Shown here piece by piece: positions 48,510 to 60,941 of a stretch of DNA of 64,000 nt. How positions within the stretch are numbered: position 1 is the stretch's first letter; the number at the start of each line of letters is the position of its first letter. Source of the stretch: Shouchella clausii (GTDB taxonomy: Bacteria; Bacillota; Bacilli; Bacillales; Bacillaceae_D); the NCBI RefSeq assembly GCF_001598215.1, contig NZ_BCXJ01000006.1:124001-188000 (forward strand). The letters are read 5' to 3'. Below the pieces are notes generated by a model that did not search any database, had not been told where the DNA came from, and worked only from the letters and a program-made list of their open reading frames with translations. Both the position numbers and the translations under genes were made by a program.

Positions 48510-48538
48510 ACTATACCATATTGTCCGATTCCCTGCAA
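48510..48538 (-). promoter_or_regulatory. rpsB promoter overlapping the 3' end of swrB
   Basis: On the minus strand TTGCAG (48533-48538), 17-nt spacer, TATAGT (48510-48515). The -10 includes the swrB stop codon. It gives rpsB a vegetative start and a leader of about 120 nt, separate from the fla/che transcript. Confidence 0.6.
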
Positions 48539-49392
48539 CTGGATACATGCGGATTTTCATCATTTTTTTCATGGAAGCGAAGCAGCAAGCTCACTTCCGT
48601 TACGCCGATTCCCAAGTCACGGGCAATTTCTTCCACCGTCAGCCCTTGCTTCCTTAGCGAAAATACTTGGCTGTACGTAGTCGAGTGGGCAAATTCCTCT
48701 TTCTCTTCAACAGACTCCAGCCTGCTGTCTTGCCCGTTGCCGTCTTTATTTTCGTTATGGTGGTTATGCTCGTTGTGCCTGTCGCTTCTTTCCTCATCAC
48801 CATTTGTTTTGTATTTGCTGCGGTTGTCAACGATACTACGATCAACGGGTTTGTCATAGCTCTGGTCTTTCTCACGTTGATTGCCATTGACTTGATTAAC
48901 GAGATTCCCGTCTTTATTCTGATTAGCGGACTTATCCCACTGACCACCTTCCACTTGATTGACAAGTTTCGCGTGTTTATCACTTTTGCCTTGATTAACG
49001 AGGTTCATACGTTTATCGGCCTTAGCCTGATCAGCAAACTTAACATCTGGATCACGTTTGGCTTGACTGGCCAGTTCCCCATATGTAACGCCTTTAGCTT
49101 TATTGACAAGCTTAACACCCGAATCGTCTTTGACTTGACTGGCCAGTTTTGGCTGTTCCCCTTCTTTCGCTTGATCGGCGTCAACATCTTGTTCACAACT
49201 GTCGCTTAACACCGTAAGCAGCTGGTCGTTGCTTTCTTTTACTTCAGCTAAAAATTGCTCAAGCGCTTCTTCTAGTTCGCCTTTATCTACATGCCCCTCT
49301 TTAAGCGCTTTTACTTTGCTTTCAAGGGCAACCTGTTTCATGAACAAATAGCCGCACAGTAGCAAAAGGGCAAATACTAAGATTTCCGTCAA
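48511..49392 (-). CDS. swrB: SwrB/YlxL-like membrane protein with expanded repeat linker
   Basis: Homologue by position (after sigD, before rpsB) of B. subtilis SwrB, which activates flagellar type III export and motility. The TTG start at 49392, 8 nt from AGGGGG, gives 293 residues against about 167 in B. subtilis. It has one N-terminal transmembrane helix (about 4-20), a coiled-coil-like segment (25-65), then about nine copies of a 12-residue repeat (about 71-175), a charged Asn/His/Asp stretch, and a C-terminal helix-turn-helix-like domain (LRKQGLTVEEIARDLGIG). The ends match the family; the middle is specific to this lineage as far as I can tell. Confidence 0.8.
   Translation of the reverse strand: MTEILVFALLLLCGYLFMKQVALESKVKALKEGHVDKGELEEALEQFLAEVKESNDQLLTVLSDSCEQDVDADQAKEGEQPKLASQVKDDSGVKLVNKAKGVTYGELASQAKRDPDVKFADQAKADKRMNLVNQGKSDKHAKLVNQVEGGQWDKSANQNKDGNLVNQVNGNQREKDQSYDKPVDRSIVDNRSKYKTNGDEERSDRHNEHNHHNENKDGNGQDSRLESVEEKEEFAHSTTYSQVFSLRKQGLTVEEIARDLGIGVTEVSLLLRFHEKNDENPHVSSCRESDNMV
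48868..49182 (-). repeat. 36-bp tandem repeat array in swrB (about nine degenerate units)
   Basis: The array encodes units of pattern [LF]-[VA]-[NSD]-Q-x-K-x-D-x-x-x-K: DADQAKEGEQPK, LASQVKDDSGVK, LVNKAKGVTYGE, LASQAKRDPDVK, FADQAKADKRMN, LVNQGKSDKHAK, LVNQVEGGQWDK, SANQNKDGN (short by three) and LVNQVNGNQREK. The frame is kept throughout. Confidence 0.85.
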
Positions 49393-49405
49393 CTTGCTCT
49401 CCCCC

Positions 49406-50170
49406 TTAACGGACAAACTCTTTCTTTTGCAAACCTTTCCGTAGTTTAGCAATTGCCCGGGCATGGATTTGTGAGATGCGTGAAGTCGACAAATTTAAAA
49501 TGCGCCCGATTTCCGTCAATGACAATTCTTCGTAATAACTAAGTTGGATGACAAGCTGTTCATTACGTCCTAGCTCTTTAATCATTTCTGCTAATTCTTT
49601 ACGTGTATCTTCTTCGACTAATTTATCATCAGGCATAATCGCTTGTTCATCTTCAAATTGGTAAGCAACAGCGCTAGGGTCCAAGTGGTCGTTCATATGC
49701 ATAACGTCGTCCAAGGAAAGCGTATGGCTGGCAAATTGTTCCCGTTTTAACGCTTCAATCTCTTTTTCTGGCAAACCCATTGCTGCTGCCACTTCGCCAG
49801 GAAGAACAGACCGCCCTTTCTCCTGTTCTAGTTGTTCTGTTATTTGTTCCAATTTTTTCACTTTATCACGGATTGTCCGTGGCAGGCGGTCTTCTTTGCG
49901 GAGCCCATCGATAATCGCTCCCCGGATTCGAAACGATGCATATGTATCAAATTTTAGCGCTCGCTTGGAATCAAATTTGGCAATTGCATCTAGCAGGCCG
50001 CTTAACGCGTGGCTTTTCAGTTCATCCTTTGAAATCGATGACGGCAAGCCATTCGAAATTCGTTGCACATGGTAAGCAACTAGCGGCATATAGTGTTCGA
50101 TCAACGCTTCAGCAGCTACTTCTGAATGTTCGTCATCCCATTGTTTCCATAACTCTGCAGCATTTGCCAT
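49406..50170 (-). CDS. sigD: Flagellar/motility sigma factor SigD
   Basis: Sigma-28 family factor of 254 residues directing late flagellar, chemotaxis and autolysin genes. Region 2 with FDTYASFRIRGAIIDGLRKED (seen in parts near 75-95) and region 4 with LTEIGRILNLSTSRISQIHARA (parts, near 215-235). The open frame extends to 50293, but ATG 50170 has AAAGGGG about 10 nt upstream and yields the B. subtilis length. It lies between cheD and swrB; proximity to the end of the long operon is known to tune SigD levels in B. subtilis. Confidence 0.96.
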   Translation of the reverse strand: MANAAELWKQWDDEHSEVAAEALIEHYMPLVAYHVQRISNGLPSSISKDELKSHALSGLLDAIAKFDSKRALKFDTYASFRIRGAIIDGLRKEDRLPRTIRDKVKKLEQITEQLEQEKGRSVLPGEVAAAMGLPEKEIEALKREQFASHTLSLDDVMHMNDHLDPSAVAYQFEDEQAIMPDDKLVEEDTRKELAEMIKELGRNEQLVIQLSYYEELSLTEIGRILNLSTSRISQIHARAIAKLRKGLQKKEFVR

Positions 50171-50195: not shown

Positions 50196-50666
50196 TCATT
50201 TCCCGTGATGGACCGTACGGACGGCCAATTCGCCTGTTTTGACGTCATATTGGATCGTCCGTCCCTTCGTTCCACCTGTATCTTCTGCAACAAGTGTGAT
50301 GCCTAGGCGAGCGAATGTCTCTCTGGCAGCCGCCGCGTTGCGCTCGCCGATTTGCATGAATTCACGTTTCACTGCGTGCTTAAACATTTGTGCACCTCCC
50401 GCCATCTTTGCGCAAAGGTTCCTAGCGCCCTGCTTTTTCAACTCTGCTTGCAAGGAGGCGATGGCAGTGTCCGCATAGCGCCATGGATTCGCCCCTTTTC
50501 GCGCCTTCGTCGAATCGGGGAGCATCACATGAACCATGCCTGCGATGAATCGTTCCTGATCATACAAGACAATGCCAATACAAGAGCCTAGGCCGCACGT
50601 CCGTAGGACACCTTCGCCTTTGACAATTTTCCACTCTCCGATTGAGATGGTTTCGCCCTTAGTCAT
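50196..50666 (-). CDS. cheD: CheD, chemoreceptor glutamine deamidase
   Basis: 156-residue deamidase that modifies receptors and stimulates the CheC phosphatase. The catalytic Cys-His pair is visible: Cys in [14 protein letters not shown] (residue 29 region) and His in GMVHVMLP (residue 46). It overlaps the cheC stop by 8 nt, matching the functional CheC-CheD pairing. sigD follows after 25 bp. Confidence 0.95.
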
Positions 50667-51273
50667 GGCAACTAGCCTCCAACACCTGCGTTAAGGTAAC
50701 ACTCGCATTTTTATCGGGTATGAACAGCAATAAGCCATCAAGGGGCTGCGTCGATTGCGGAAGGCAAATGTCCGTTTCCATCACAATGCATTCTTCGTCA
50801 TCGATTAAATGTAGCGCCCCTTCTGCGAGAACAGCGCTTGCTAAATCAATGGAAAGCTCAGTCACAAGCGGGTAGCATTTTAAGTCTGTCAGTTTTGATA
50901 AAGCAGTCAAATAAGCACCGATCAACAGATTTCCTACTTCTTGGAAGGCTGACTGGGCCAGCTCACTTGCGGCAAATACATGTGGCTTTAGCTTGAGCTT
51001 TTCTTCGAGCAAATAAGCGGAGAAAGCAGCAGCTGCTTTTGTGGTCGCCAAAAAGAACATTCCGCCGCCAAGCTCACCGCCTAGGGGGGCATAGACAGCA
51101 GCAATTTCTTCATCCTCAGCAAAACGGAAGCGGGGCAGTTCAGCCATGCATAAGTAGTGGGCTGTTGGAACGTCCATGACAACATTGACGCCAAGAAGGC
51201 TGGACAGCGCTGTCGCCGCGTAGCCTGTGCCGATATTGGCCATTTCCTTCATTGCGTCTAATCGATTACGCAT
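50659..51273 (-). CDS. cheC: CheC, CheY-P phosphatase
   Basis: 204-residue CheY-phosphate phosphatase of the CheC/FliY/CheX family. Both active-site helices are intact: D-x3-E-x2-N in [10 protein letters not shown] (N-terminus) and S-x3-E-x2-N in [10 protein letters not shown] (near 108). It therefore should be active, with CheD as partner. It overlaps cheB by 8 nt; in B. subtilis cheA and cheW lie between cheB and cheC, and these are missing here. Confidence 0.94.
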
Positions 51274-52195
51274 AAAATCCCCCTTCCCGTTTATCTTTTT
51301 TGGCTAAATATCGCCCGATCTCATCCTTGTCCATGACAGCGTCGACTTGATTGCTCGCAATCGCAGCCTTAGGCATTCCAAAAATCGCCGCCGATTTTTC
51401 CGATTCTGCCAAGATTTCACAACCGCCGCTTTGTTTGACCATTTCCAATACTTGTGAGCCATCATTCCCCATGCCCGTTAACACAACAAGTGTTTTCGTC
51501 GCACACGCAATCGTGGACTGAAAAAGCAGAAACACACTAGGATGGTACAAATCATTTTTGCCAGCAGGTGATATGTGTGCGTATAAGCCAGCGCTACGTT
51601 TATTCAGTTCCAACTGCGCGCCGCCTGGGGCAATATAAGCAGTCCCCGGTTGTAGTGCTTCCCCATGTGATGCTTCTCTGACGCGAATCCGACATAAGCG
51701 GTCAAGCCGAGCGGCCAGCGATTTCGTAAAACCTGCTGGCATATGCTGGGCAATGACGACTGGAGCTGAAAAGTCAGGGGCTAGCTTTGTCAGTACATGT
51801 GTGAGAGCAAGAGGGCCGCCTGATGATGCACCAATGGCAACCACTTCCCCTAATGGCTGCAATGATGCTTCCTCTCGTTTGCCACATGGCAACAGTTTGG
51901 CGGCAAGGGCTTTGGTTAGCGCTTTGGCATTTGCCGTTTGCCAGAAGACGGTTCGTTCGCTGTCAACCACTCGCTGATGCCGTTCTAGTATAAACACTGT
52001 CTGGCGAGGCAACTCCACGACGTCCATTTGCTCCCATTCGTCACAAGGCGCATATAAAAATGCATCAACAGTCACAATCGCCTCTTCCCAGTTTGAAAAA
52101 GCAGCATTTGCCTCGATTCCCTCTACTTGACGTAGCACCGTTTGTAGAAATTGCTGCTTAAACAAGGAAGGGCTCACAACGGCCACGGTCACCAT
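51266..52195 (-). CDS. cheB: CheB methylesterase with degenerate receiver domain
   Basis: Receptor methylesterase, 309 residues against about 357 in B. subtilis. The C-terminal catalytic domain keeps its triad: Ser124 in GASSGG, His151 in AQHMPAG, Asp245 in GMGNDG. The N-terminal 105 residues occupy the receiver position but the acidic pair is replaced by Ser8-Pro9 (VVSPS), the phospho-acceptor strand reads DAFLYAPCDEW with no acceptor Asp, and the conserved Lys is not seen. Regulation by CheA phosphorylation is therefore unlikely. The gene overlaps flhG by 7 nt and cheC by 8 nt. Confidence 0.9.
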   Translation of the reverse strand: MVTVAVVSPSLFKQQFLQTVLRQVEGIEANAAFSNWEEAIVTVDAFLYAPCDEWEQMDVVELPRQTVFILERHQRVVDSERTVFWQTANAKALTKALAAKLLPCGKREEASLQPLGEVVAIGASSGGPLALTHVLTKLAPDFSAPVVIAQHMPAGFTKSLAARLDRLCRIRVREASHGEALQPGTAYIAPGGAQLELNKRSAGLYAHISPAGKNDLYHPSVFLLFQSTIACATKTLVVLTGMGNDGSQVLEMVKQSGGCEILAESEKSAAIFGMPKAAIASNQVDAVMDKDEIGRYLAKKDKREGGFYA

Positions 52196-52764
52196 TCCAA
52201 CAAAAATTCCTTTACAAGCACGCTTACACTCTCATATATGCTATCAACGTACGCTTCTCGAGGCTCGTTTTCAATAACACCGAGGATTGTTGTCTGTTTT
52301 TCTAAAAATGCCGTAATCGTGTCCGCCATGTTGCAGGCAGCACGCTTCGCTTTCTCTGAATCTCCTTGTGACAAGCCAAGGAGCAAAACAGAATGGGGCA
52401 TTTCTTGTTTCACAAACTGATAATGGGCAAGAAGCGCCTCTTTATCAGGCACTGTCAACAACAACAAAGGAACGTCTTGGCGCAATTGTTTTTTCTCGCC
52501 AGCAGTACGGATGTAAAACAGTACTTGTACATTGGCAGCAGATAGCGTTTTACTCGATTCACGGGTAAATAGATGGTCTTGTTTGTGTGCTGAAAAAAGT
52601 TGTTTTGCGGCATCGGTTGCGATAATAACCGCTTGAAACCCATAACGATCGAGAGCTTGACAAATTTCTTCTATCATCATTGTTTCTTGCACGCTTGAAA
52701 GTTGGATTTCAAACGCTTTTGTTTTCCTGCTTGCAAGCATACGCAAGCCTTCTGCTTGATCCAT
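52189..52764 (-). CDS. flhG: degenerate FlhG (YlxH) lacking the Walker A loop
   Basis: Occupies the flhG position between flhF and cheB. FlhG is a MinD-type ATPase of about 290 residues that limits flagellar number and placement. This product has 191 residues. It keeps the N-terminal DQAEGLR motif (residues 2-8), which in FlhG stimulates the FlhF GTPase, but the following KGGVGKS nucleotide loop is absent (IQLSSVQETMM in its place). The central VPLLLLTVPDKEALLAHY and later ILGVIENE segments still resemble the MinD fold. The frame is open and overlaps both neighbours, so it is not a simple frameshift. Confidence 0.8.
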   Translation of the reverse strand: MDQAEGLRMLASRKTKAFEIQLSSVQETMMIEEICQALDRYGFQAVIIATDAAKQLFSAHKQDHLFTRESSKTLSAANVQVLFYIRTAGEKKQLRQDVPLLLLTVPDKEALLAHYQFVKQEMPHSVLLLGLSQGDSEKAKRAACNMADTITAFLEKQTTILGVIENEPREAYVDSIYESVSVLVKEFLLEW

Positions 52765-53744
52765 TAGTCACCCCCGGTAAGCCACTTCAGCAATTGTTCT
52801 TTATCAGGCCAGCAAATGTCTTCTGGCACATTTTGCCCGGTCGTCACACAGGCAACTGGAAGAGCCTCGCTGTACAAAAGCTCACAAAGCGTTCCAAGTG
52901 AGGCCGTTTCATCCAATTTTGTTAAGATCAGTCCATTGACAAGCTCTTTTGGAAAACGGCTAAGCATATGCCGGGCATCTTCTGCTTTGGCTGCCAAACT
53001 AAGGGCAACCAAAAGGTGGCATGATGCGCTCTCTTGTATATAATCAACAAGCTCAGCAGGCATTTGCTCGTGCAAATAATTGCGCCCAGCTGTGTCAACT
53101 AAGACAAGATCAGCCGTTTGACGGCTGCACAAATCGATTAATTCTGATTCATTGTATGCTGTATAAATAGGGCAATCGAGAATATGGGCATATGTTTTTA
53201 ACTGTTCGACTGCGGCAATCCGATACGTATCGAATGTGATGAAAGAAACCGTTTTGTTTTCCTCAAACATGGCTTTTGCAGCAAGCTTGGCGATTGTCGT
53301 TGTTTTCCCTACCCCCGTTGGCCCAGCGATAATCAGTGTTTGTTGCCGTTTTTGCTCGAAGGGTTGCAGATGCAAACTGGCTCGAAATGTTTGCATAAGC
53401 AACTCTTCTCTCGTGCGGGCGTTGCCTTGCTTCTCTGCCATTTGCGCCGTCAACTGCAAATTTTTAAGAACACGGTTCGACACGCCCAGCTGTTGCAAAT
53501 GGCGGTTCGCTTCTCTTAGAAGCGGCGACTGCTTTTCATCACCACCGCGGTCAACGCTGTTGTTACGGTGATCCGGTCCGTCAATGCCAGCGGTCACTTG
53601 GACTTGCTTTTTACCAAAAAAACCAAATAACCCTCCTGTCACCACTTCTTTTACGTGCAATATGACAGCATCCTTGCCCAACTGCTTGCGGATATCTTTA
53701 GCCGCTTCCTCTAGCGTCGGGGCTACAAATCGTTTTACGTTCAT
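52764..53744 (-). CDS. flhF: FlhF, SRP-type GTPase for flagellar placement
   Basis: SRP54-family GTPase of 326 residues that sets flagellar position and number. N-terminal B domain (MNVKRFVAPTLEEAAKDIRK), N domain (about 75-130), G domain with P-loop GPTGVGKT at 141-148, DTYRIAAVEQLKTYA (G2), DTAGR (G3) and TKLDE (G4). The B domain linker is shorter than in B. subtilis (366 residues). It shares its stop with the flhG start (TAATG) and overlaps flhA by 4 nt. Its GTPase-activating partner FlhG is degenerate here. Confidence 0.95.
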   Translation of the reverse strand: MNVKRFVAPTLEEAAKDIRKQLGKDAVILHVKEVVTGGLFGFFGKKQVQVTAGIDGPDHRNNSVDRGGDEKQSPLLREANRHLQQLGVSNRVLKNLQLTAQMAEKQGNARTREELLMQTFRASLHLQPFEQKRQQTLIIAGPTGVGKTTTIAKLAAKAMFEENKTVSFITFDTYRIAAVEQLKTYAHILDCPIYTAYNESELIDLCSRQTADLVLVDTAGRNYLHEQMPAELVDYIQESASCHLLVALSLAAKAEDARHMLSRFPKELVNGLILTKLDETASLGTLCELLYSEALPVACVTTGQNVPEDICWPDKEQLLKWLTGGD

Positions 53745-59750: not shown

Positions 59751-60941
59751 TTAACGCAAGTGGGTGAGGCGGTCTTTTTTGCTCACAATGTCTGTAATCC
59801 GCACGCCAAAGTTTTCGTCAATCACGACAACTTCGCCTTTGGCAATCAGCTTGTCATTGATAAGTACGTCGACCGGCTCACCTGCCAACTTATCAAGTTC
59901 AATAATTGATCCTTGCGCAATCGACAAAATTTCACGGATTGTTTTTTTCGTGCGACCTAATTCCACTTTGACTTCTAGCGGTATGTCTAAGAGCATGTCT
60001 AAGTTTTGCATTTCTGCTTCGTCTGGCTTTGTTGTCTCAAAATTAGAGAATACCGCTTTTTCCACGACTTGTTCAGCGTCTTTTACTCTTTGGCCAATAT
60101 GCTGGTTCACTCGCCCAGCACTTGCGCCATCCCCGTGCCCGCTAGTGGCCAGAGCAGGTTCAGGCAACGGTTCTGCCTCTTGCACTGGCGGTTCTGCTGC
60201 GGTGCCACCGCCAAGCAAAGCGTTTGCGTAATCTTTGCTGAAAGGAACGCTAATAAGTTGCATTAACTTTGAATCAATCAGATCACCGACGCGAAGAGAA
60301 AACGAAATTGCAATCAATTCTTCTCCATCGGGGACATACTCTGTCCGCGACTGTTCATCAAATTCGATGACTTCCACTTTTGGCGGCGAAATGTCGACAC
60401 GACGATTAAATAACGTCGACATCGAGGTTGAAGCAGAACCCATCATTTGGTTCATCGCTTCTTGGACTGCACTTAAATGCATCTCCGACAATTCTGGATC
60501 AGGGCTTTCCCCATTTCCTCCAAGCATGAGATCTGCAATGATCGCTGCGTCATCTGTCGTGATCACAAATAAGTTTGAGCCTTCGAATCCCTCTGTGTAT
60601 TTGACATGGACAATGACGTTCGGCCGTGGAAAAAGCTGGCGTAGCATGCCTGAGCTGACTGCCGATACAACCGGTGTCGTAATTTCCACTTTTTGATTCA
60701 ACAGTGCTGATAAAGCAGTCGCCGAACTACCAAAGGAAATATTGCCGATTTCGCCGATTGTATCTTGCTCCATATGAGTTAAAAACTCGTTAATATCCGG
60801 GGACTCCGTCTGTGTTTCTTCTGGTCTGGATTCGTCTTCACGGACTTCCTGTTGTCCAGCCTCACCGGAAGCTTCGCCGTCCTGGAGCCCCTTTAACAAT
60901 TCGTTTATTTCTTCCTGGGAAAGCAGCTTGTCATTCATCAT
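59751..60941 (-). CDS. fliY: FliY, flagellar switch protein and CheY-P phosphatase
   Basis: Switch component of 396 residues that fuses a CheC-like phosphatase to a FliN domain. N-terminal CheY-P-binding peptide LLSQEEINELL (6-16), two phosphatase helices with E-x2-N (IGEIGNISFG near 58 and VQEAMNQMMG near 155), an acidic/Pro linker, and a C-terminal FliN/SpoA domain (about 310-390). It overlaps fliM by 11 nt. cheY follows after 45 bp. Confidence 0.96.
   Translation of the reverse strand: MMNDKLLSQEEINELLKGLQDGEASGEAGQQEVREDESRPEETQTESPDINEFLTHMEQDTIGEIGNISFGSSATALSALLNQKVEITTPVVSAVSSGMLRQLFPRPNVIVHVKYTEGFEGSNLFVITTDDAAIIADLMLGGNGESPDPELSEMHLSAVQEAMNQMMGSASTSMSTLFNRRVDISPPKVEVIEFDEQSRTEYVPDGEELIAISFSLRVGDLIDSKLMQLISVPFSKDYANALLGGGTAAEPPVQEAEPLPEPALATSGHGDGASAGRVNQHIGQRVKDAEQVVEKAVFSNFETTKPDEAEMQNLDMLLDIPLEVKVELGRTKKTIREILSIAQGSIIELDKLAGEPVDVLINDKLIAKGEVVVIDENFGVRITDIVSKKDRLTHLR

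Follow-up and report, generated by a model that had tools for sequence, protein, structure and literature searches.

A reduced FlhG lacking its ATPase site in Shouchella, and apparent parallels in related lineages

FlhG normally uses ATP in helping to place bacterial flagella. In the 64,000-nucleotide stretch of Shouchella clausii DNA analyzed here (the window), the gene directly after flhF encodes a protein of only 191 residues, which an earlier reading of the sequence alone had proposed to be an FlhG that keeps its FlhF-activating motif and has lost its ATPase loop. This raises the question of whether the protein indeed descends from FlhG and, if so, what might be left for an FlhG to do once its nucleotide site is gone.

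The gene between flhF and cheB

The gene is read from the minus strand, from 52764 to 52189 including the stop codon, and its 191-residue product has an ATG start (MDQAEGLRMLASRK...). The details given by the sequence-only reading were confirmed on this strand: the protein begins M-DQAEGLR, has no KGGVGK loop, and its gene shares 1 nt with the 3' end of flhF (52764) and 7 nt with the start of cheB (52195). No other Walker A motif is found in the sequence. Two alignments are used throughout. A1 holds ten of the 12 reduced FlhG proteins of Shouchella, and A2 holds 24 of the 27 open full-length FlhG frames of the family, with two near-copies and the frame of genome G029 left out. The features are as follows.

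52189..52764, minus strand: reduced FlhG (191 residues plus stop), most likely FlhG-derived, without ATPase site; from reading of the open frame and orthologs
52741..52761, minus strand: DQAEGLR, residues 2-8, an instance of the DQAxxLR FlhF-activating motif; invariant in all 10 rows of A1; model helix at 3-11
52684..52701, minus strand: residues 22-27, a short loop and helix start aligned in place of the FlhG KGGVGKS P-loop by global profile alignment (model strand 16-21, helix 25-40); not conserved in A1
52264..52473, minus strand: residues 98-167, C-terminal half homologous to FlhG positions 151-224 (hhalign, A1 versus A2)
52408..52422, minus strand: YxxxK (Y115-K119), counterpart of DAYxxxK; 10/10 in A1 and 24/24 in A2
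52306..52308, minus strand: F153, counterpart of F215 on the FliY/GpsB surface of G. thermodenitrificans FlhG; in A1, nine rows have F and the tenth has Y
52764..53744, minus strand: flhF, 326 residues, GTPase motifs intact (open frame and alignment A3)
51266..52195, minus strand: cheB, 309 residues; Pfam finds the methylesterase domain only, no receiver
59751..60941, minus strand: fliY, 396 residues, presumed C-ring docking partner, named by eye from its sequence and place in the operon

Searches of Pfam and NCBIfam with the reduced protein returned one weak match each, far under the cut-off. The Pfam families ParA, CbiA, and AAA_31 gave no match above cut-off, and all three are above cut-off in the full-length FlhG of a sister genus (L043). 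A scan for promoters and terminators revealed nothing beyond what shuffled sequences gave.

Several observations concern the surrounding genes. The cheB gene is directly followed by cheC (50659-52195), and in 12 Shouchella genomes (loci L031-L042) its product is the only CheB found per genome. Its receiver is normal only in G008 (by Pfam, run on G000 and G008 only); by eye, seven Shouchella proteins have a receiver region without the acidic residues, and four consist of the methylesterase domain alone (207-208 residues). CheW-domain proteins of the size of CheA (665 residues) and CheW (153 residues) are encoded away from the flagellar operon (G000 C4:219497-220333). Beside sigD, a 317-residue open frame (48511-49464) appears by eye to have an N-terminal hydrophobic stretch, loose K/Q/V-rich repeats, and a helix-turn-helix-like end; we take it to occupy the place of swrB in B. 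subtilis.

Descent from FlhG and fixation in the genus

Of the 28 other genomes of the family, seven gave a full-length FlhG match to the A1 profile, at E 6e-9 to 6e-4, and 21 gave none. When A1 and A2 were compared by hhalign, residues 98-167 were placed on FlhG positions 151-224 (probability 91.6, E 8e-7), and a global run gave a probability of 94.3 and an E of 1.8e-8. For the N-terminal half, which shows no significant local similarity, the alignment comes only from the global run and the structural model. AlphaFold, run on A1, produced a model with a pLDDT of 87.8 and a pTM of 0.83, in which residues 1-10 average only 54. The three best Foldseek matches to this model in the PDB are all FlhG chains (4rz2_B, 4rz3_A, and 4rz2_A; E 7.6e-9 to 9.9e-8, TM 0.62-0.70), at rmsd values of about 6-7.5 and identities of only 10-11%. 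The first of them, 4rz2_B, has an E of 7.6e-9, a TM score of 0.70 on the query, an rmsd of 6.1, and 11% identity. FleN and MinD follow, mixed with MeaB-type GTPases.

Given the profile matches and the likeness of the model to FlhG, the 191-residue protein is most likely of FlhG descent, and an unrelated protein in the FlhG slot is ruled out by profile and fold. The earlier observation that MinD-like strands remain is supported: profile comparison and structure prediction both point to an FlhG descendant that has a MinD-like core without a Walker A motif.

Orthologs are present in 12 of the 13 Shouchella genomes searched, which are all 12 that bear flhF, and always directly after that gene. They are 191-198 residues long, all start with DQAxxLR, none carries a P-loop, and their identity to the 191-residue protein ranges from 20% to 93%, with S. 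rhizosphaerae and S. tritolerans at 92-93%. The longest (198 residues) comes from a draft genome, G009, in which the end of FlhG is shifted and flhF is broken. The one Shouchella genome without the gene (G004, 2.6 Mb) gave no FlhF, CheW-type, or CheB match either at the cut-offs used. Across the family, FlhF is found in 39 of 41 genomes (E<=1e-22), the remaining two being G004 and G015, where flhF is broken. In the six other genera, the gene after flhF encodes KGGVGK in all 28 genomes; 27 of these FlhG frames are open (that of G029 with a changed C-terminus), and that of G034 is broken after the P-loop.

Because 12 genomes agree, sequencing error or recent decay can be ruled out. Loss of Walker A is fixed across the 12 flhF-bearing Shouchella genomes searched, none of which has a P-loop. 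A second, full-length flhG, which would have undercut the proposal, was sought in the same genome and not found. The protein as query found one match in its own genome, and the full-length FlhG profile found nothing there at E<=1e-60. Five matches to PF13614 are present, three of which were read: a 270-residue ParA-like protein without DQA, MinD, and a 231-residue CpsD-like kinase. The matches at C1:19524 and C9:9544 are presumably Soj and Mrp.

Selection on the gene was estimated as dN/dS by the Nei-Gojobori method. Among the four closest genomes (G000, G001, G007, and G011), the six pairs give 0.08-0.18, far from the value near 1 expected had the reading been wrong, and flhF gives 0.13-0.16 in the same genomes. 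Elsewhere, values are 0.09 for G005 against both G002 and G003, 0.23 for G006-G009 (flhF of G009 is broken), and 0.28 for G002-G003, a pair that has hardly diverged (dS 0.008). For three distant pairs the values are 0.16-0.21, at dS above 2, near saturation. Selection on the reduced flhG is purifying, and the FlhG-derived pseudo-ATPase is fixed in the genus as sampled.

All five DQAxxLR columns are invariant in A1, although only 13 of the 190 columns after Met1 are (hypergeometric 7e-7, relatedness ignored). Residues kept in 10 of 10 rows include D2, Q3, A4, L7, R8, Y115, K119, N145, and G162, and F153 is kept in nine. The catalytic aspartate and switch residues D53, D55, D134, and G138 are the same in all 24 sequences of A2 and have no conserved counterpart in A1. 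In the global alignment the reduced protein stops at position 261 of a 289-residue relative, so that the C-terminal membrane-targeting helix is absent. With the 4rz2 chain index taken to exceed the residue number by 8, as K36 and D60 indicate, K119 and F153 correspond to K177 and F215 of G. thermodenitrificans FlhG. Both residues are reported to bind FliY and GpsB, with K177 being needed (PMC12327844). At the third FliY residue, R207 (for which PMC12327844 also prints R277), the Shouchella protein has N, and each of the 24 relatives has either N or S.

Losses elsewhere in the order

An evenly drawn set of 249 genomes from the order was surveyed for similar proteins. Of these, 232 gave a match for FlhF (E<=1e-55) and 226 for full-length FlhG (E<=1e-60); G259, G263, and G267 are counted as without FlhG because they are absent among the matches listed. 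Seven genomes have FlhF and no full FlhG: two of Shouchella (G000 and G005), two of genus g41 (G074 and G267), G115, G255, and G259. In G115 the P-loop is intact and the frame breaks further on. The others outside Shouchella, all in different families from it, carry P-loop-less genes after flhF that encode 144 residues with DQAENLR (both g41 genomes), 239 residues with DQAENLR (G255), and 277 residues with DQAESLR (G259). Full-length alignment with FlhG is obtained for both the G255 protein (E 2.7e-24) and the G259 protein (E 1.7e-15).

The 144-residue form is identified as FlhG mainly by its place after flhF and its DQAENLR motif. Compared with FlhG by hhalign, it shows a weak similarity that covers 32 columns in another stretch (probability 66, E 5.5e-5), and it gave no significant match to A1, nor to FlhG in the global run. 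The order of strands and helices is similar in its structural model, which at a pLDDT of 47 is too poor for the fold to be used. The gene has a dN/dS of 0.11.

Among the 226 full-length FlhG proteins, the P-loop was read in 51, comprising the 30 lowest-scoring and 21 others (seven in the family and 14 more). All 21 of the latter have GKGG. The 30 lowest-scoring all have DQAxxLR, in G142 in a different frame from the P-loop, and 28 have GKGGVGK. The two exceptions have an altered Walker A (L111:1504-1620 and L115:1504-1620), reading GKSGLGT in G111 and GVEGEGKS, a plain Walker A, in G206. GKSGLGT is a possible fifth loss.

A quick FlhF tree with SH-aLRT support, built from 51 of 66 rows after near-copies and a few broken sequences (15 in all) were left out, needs four changes, and its starred branches force four. 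Horizontal spread of a single short form is therefore not supported, with the caveat that Shouchella and g41 sit on long branches, a point flagged by the tree program itself. In genus g104, G277 has the P-loop and G255 lacks it, and this loss therefore looks recent. The ATP site of FlhG has thus apparently been lost separately in Shouchella and in at least three related lineages. The sequence-only reading had suggested that activation and ATPase may have been separated in this lineage, leaving a minimal FlhF activator, with changed flagellar number or placement as a consequence. The loss there is confirmed, and the evolutionary claim that the activating motif was kept while the ATPase was lost is supported, since none of the three findings it named as telling against it was made; the phenomenon is wider than suggested, extending to at least four lineages.

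A putative ATP-independent FlhF activator

Work on model FlhG proteins suggests what the reduced form might do. The glutamine of DQAxxLR is a co-catalytic element in FlhF (PMC12826062), and in B. subtilis FlhG the Q8A change resembles a deletion, the ATPase-dead D65A change makes no discernible difference, and without the membrane helix (MTS) the effect is about 10% (PMC12327844). FliY-N36 binds FlhG independently of ATP, whereas GpsB binds only with ATP and no longer binds the P-loop mutant K36A (PMC12327844). Because D65A is described as dimerizing constitutively rather than as failing to bind ATP, it does not mimic loss of the P-loop. Together, these results predict that the short forms keep FlhF activation and FliY binding and cannot contact GpsB.

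We consider it probable, from conserved residues, the structural model, and analogy with these mutants, that the reduced FlhG is a nucleotide-independent FlhF activator that docks on the C-ring via FliY. Nucleotide binding would have been lost and two contact surfaces kept. Through its N-terminal DQAxxLR helix the protein would provide the FlhF GTP dimer with a co-catalytic glutamine, and through its YxxxK...F surface it would contact the C-ring protein FliY, which would bring the reduced FlhG to nascent C-rings. The protein would be a permanently monomeric, cytosolic, ATP-independent activator of the FlhF GTPase. The ATP-dependent contact to GpsB would no longer be made, and flagellar spacing may as a result be uncoupled from cell-wall growth. 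Loss of GpsB itself does not explain the change, because DivIVA-family frames of GpsB size (103-146 residues) are encoded in all seven genomes looked at.

Shouchella FlhF is itself unusual, at 325-340 residues (one broken) versus 364-395 in most relatives and with a long branch in the FlhF tree, so the pair of FlhF and reduced FlhG may have changed its job. The FlhF of g41, partner of the 144-residue form, is on a longer branch still. Such changes in FlhF, and in CheB of the same lineage, would also suit a protein that serves for holding alone, as would the missing ATP site and membrane helix and the kept FliY-contact residues. We regard this as unlikely, because the invariant glutamine of DQAxxLR is not needed for holding only and the GTPase motifs of FlhF are intact.

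Less probable again is slow decay, in which a dying FlhG of little function keeps its frame mainly because its translation is coupled to that of flhF and cheB. Divergence is fast (20-93% identity within the genus), the gene overlaps its neighbors by 1 and 7 nt, FlhF is long-branched too, and the CheB receiver was lost in the same operon. A decaying gene is nevertheless difficult to reconcile with dN/dS values like those of flhF in the four closest genomes (one pair, in which flhF is broken, has a higher value of 0.23), a length held at 191-198 residues in 12 of 12 orthologs, invariant DQAxxLR, YxxxK, N145, and G162, a compact and confident fold, and the dN/dS of 0.11 for the g41 form. That ATP dependence has shifted to another ATPase acting in trans with the FlhG remnant, such as MinD, is very improbable, although the genome encodes a MinD with an intact P-loop and MinD affects flagella in E. 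coli (PMC12826062).

The favored reading, an FlhF activator freed of ATP, can be set against known systems. The reduced protein resembles FlhG (YlxH/FleN, a MinD-type ATPase; 4rz2/4rz3) in its place after flhF, its DQAxxLR helix, its MinD-like fold, and the YxxxK and F of the FliY surface. It differs in lacking Walker A, the conserved switch residues, and the C-terminal membrane helix, and in having 191 residues rather than the 281-297 of the 24 aligned relatives. As in the D65A and MTS-less variants of B. subtilis FlhG, whose flagellar pattern is near normal, the hydrolysis or membrane step is gone and the DQAxxLR helix stays (PMC12327844); unlike them, the Shouchella form is natural, occurs throughout the genus, and lacks the nucleotide site itself. 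The protein would also parallel the SRP RNA acting on Ffh-FtsY, in that a factor other than an ATPase completes the GTPase site in a dimer of SRP-type GTPases, with a protein helix on FlhF in place of RNA (PMC12826062). B. cereus likewise has FlhF without an FlhG ATPase, but there, in the portion of PMC7218170 available, no FlhG homolog is reported at all, whereas Shouchella keeps the activator helix. Seven short forms were scanned and none is above the cut-off of any Pfam family, so annotation-based statements that FlhG is absent could miss such proteins.

The literature searched holds no report of a P-loop-less FlhG and nothing on FlhG in clausii. The words "degenerate" and "truncated" do not occur in the available text of PMC12826062, and the part of PMC7439463 at hand held nothing relevant. 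Flagella in the old genus Alkalihalobacillus are described as peritrichous and Shouchella as "motile, or non-motile" (PMC8543038).

With the phospho-receiver of CheB shed in 11 of 12 Shouchella and the ATP site of FlhG gone, one lineage appears to have stripped its flagellar-chemotaxis operon of two switches that work by nucleotide or phosphate. Loss of the ATP site with retention of the piece that acts on FlhF suggests more broadly that the ATP engine of FlhG is optional. On balance we lean toward the view that the FlhG ATPase is evolutionarily dispensable, that a single order has shed it at least four times, and that what remained in each case, a protein of 144 to 277 residues, activates FlhF without nucleotide. 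The pair of FlhF and DQAxxLR would then be the minimal switch for flagellar placement, and the ATP cycle an added layer linking it to the membrane and to cell-wall growth. From point mutants, PMC12327844 argues that FlhF stimulation is the central function of FlhG. A genus without the FlhG ATPase, together with three apparent parallels of different size, would provide natural evidence for that view, and minimal proteins with which to test it.
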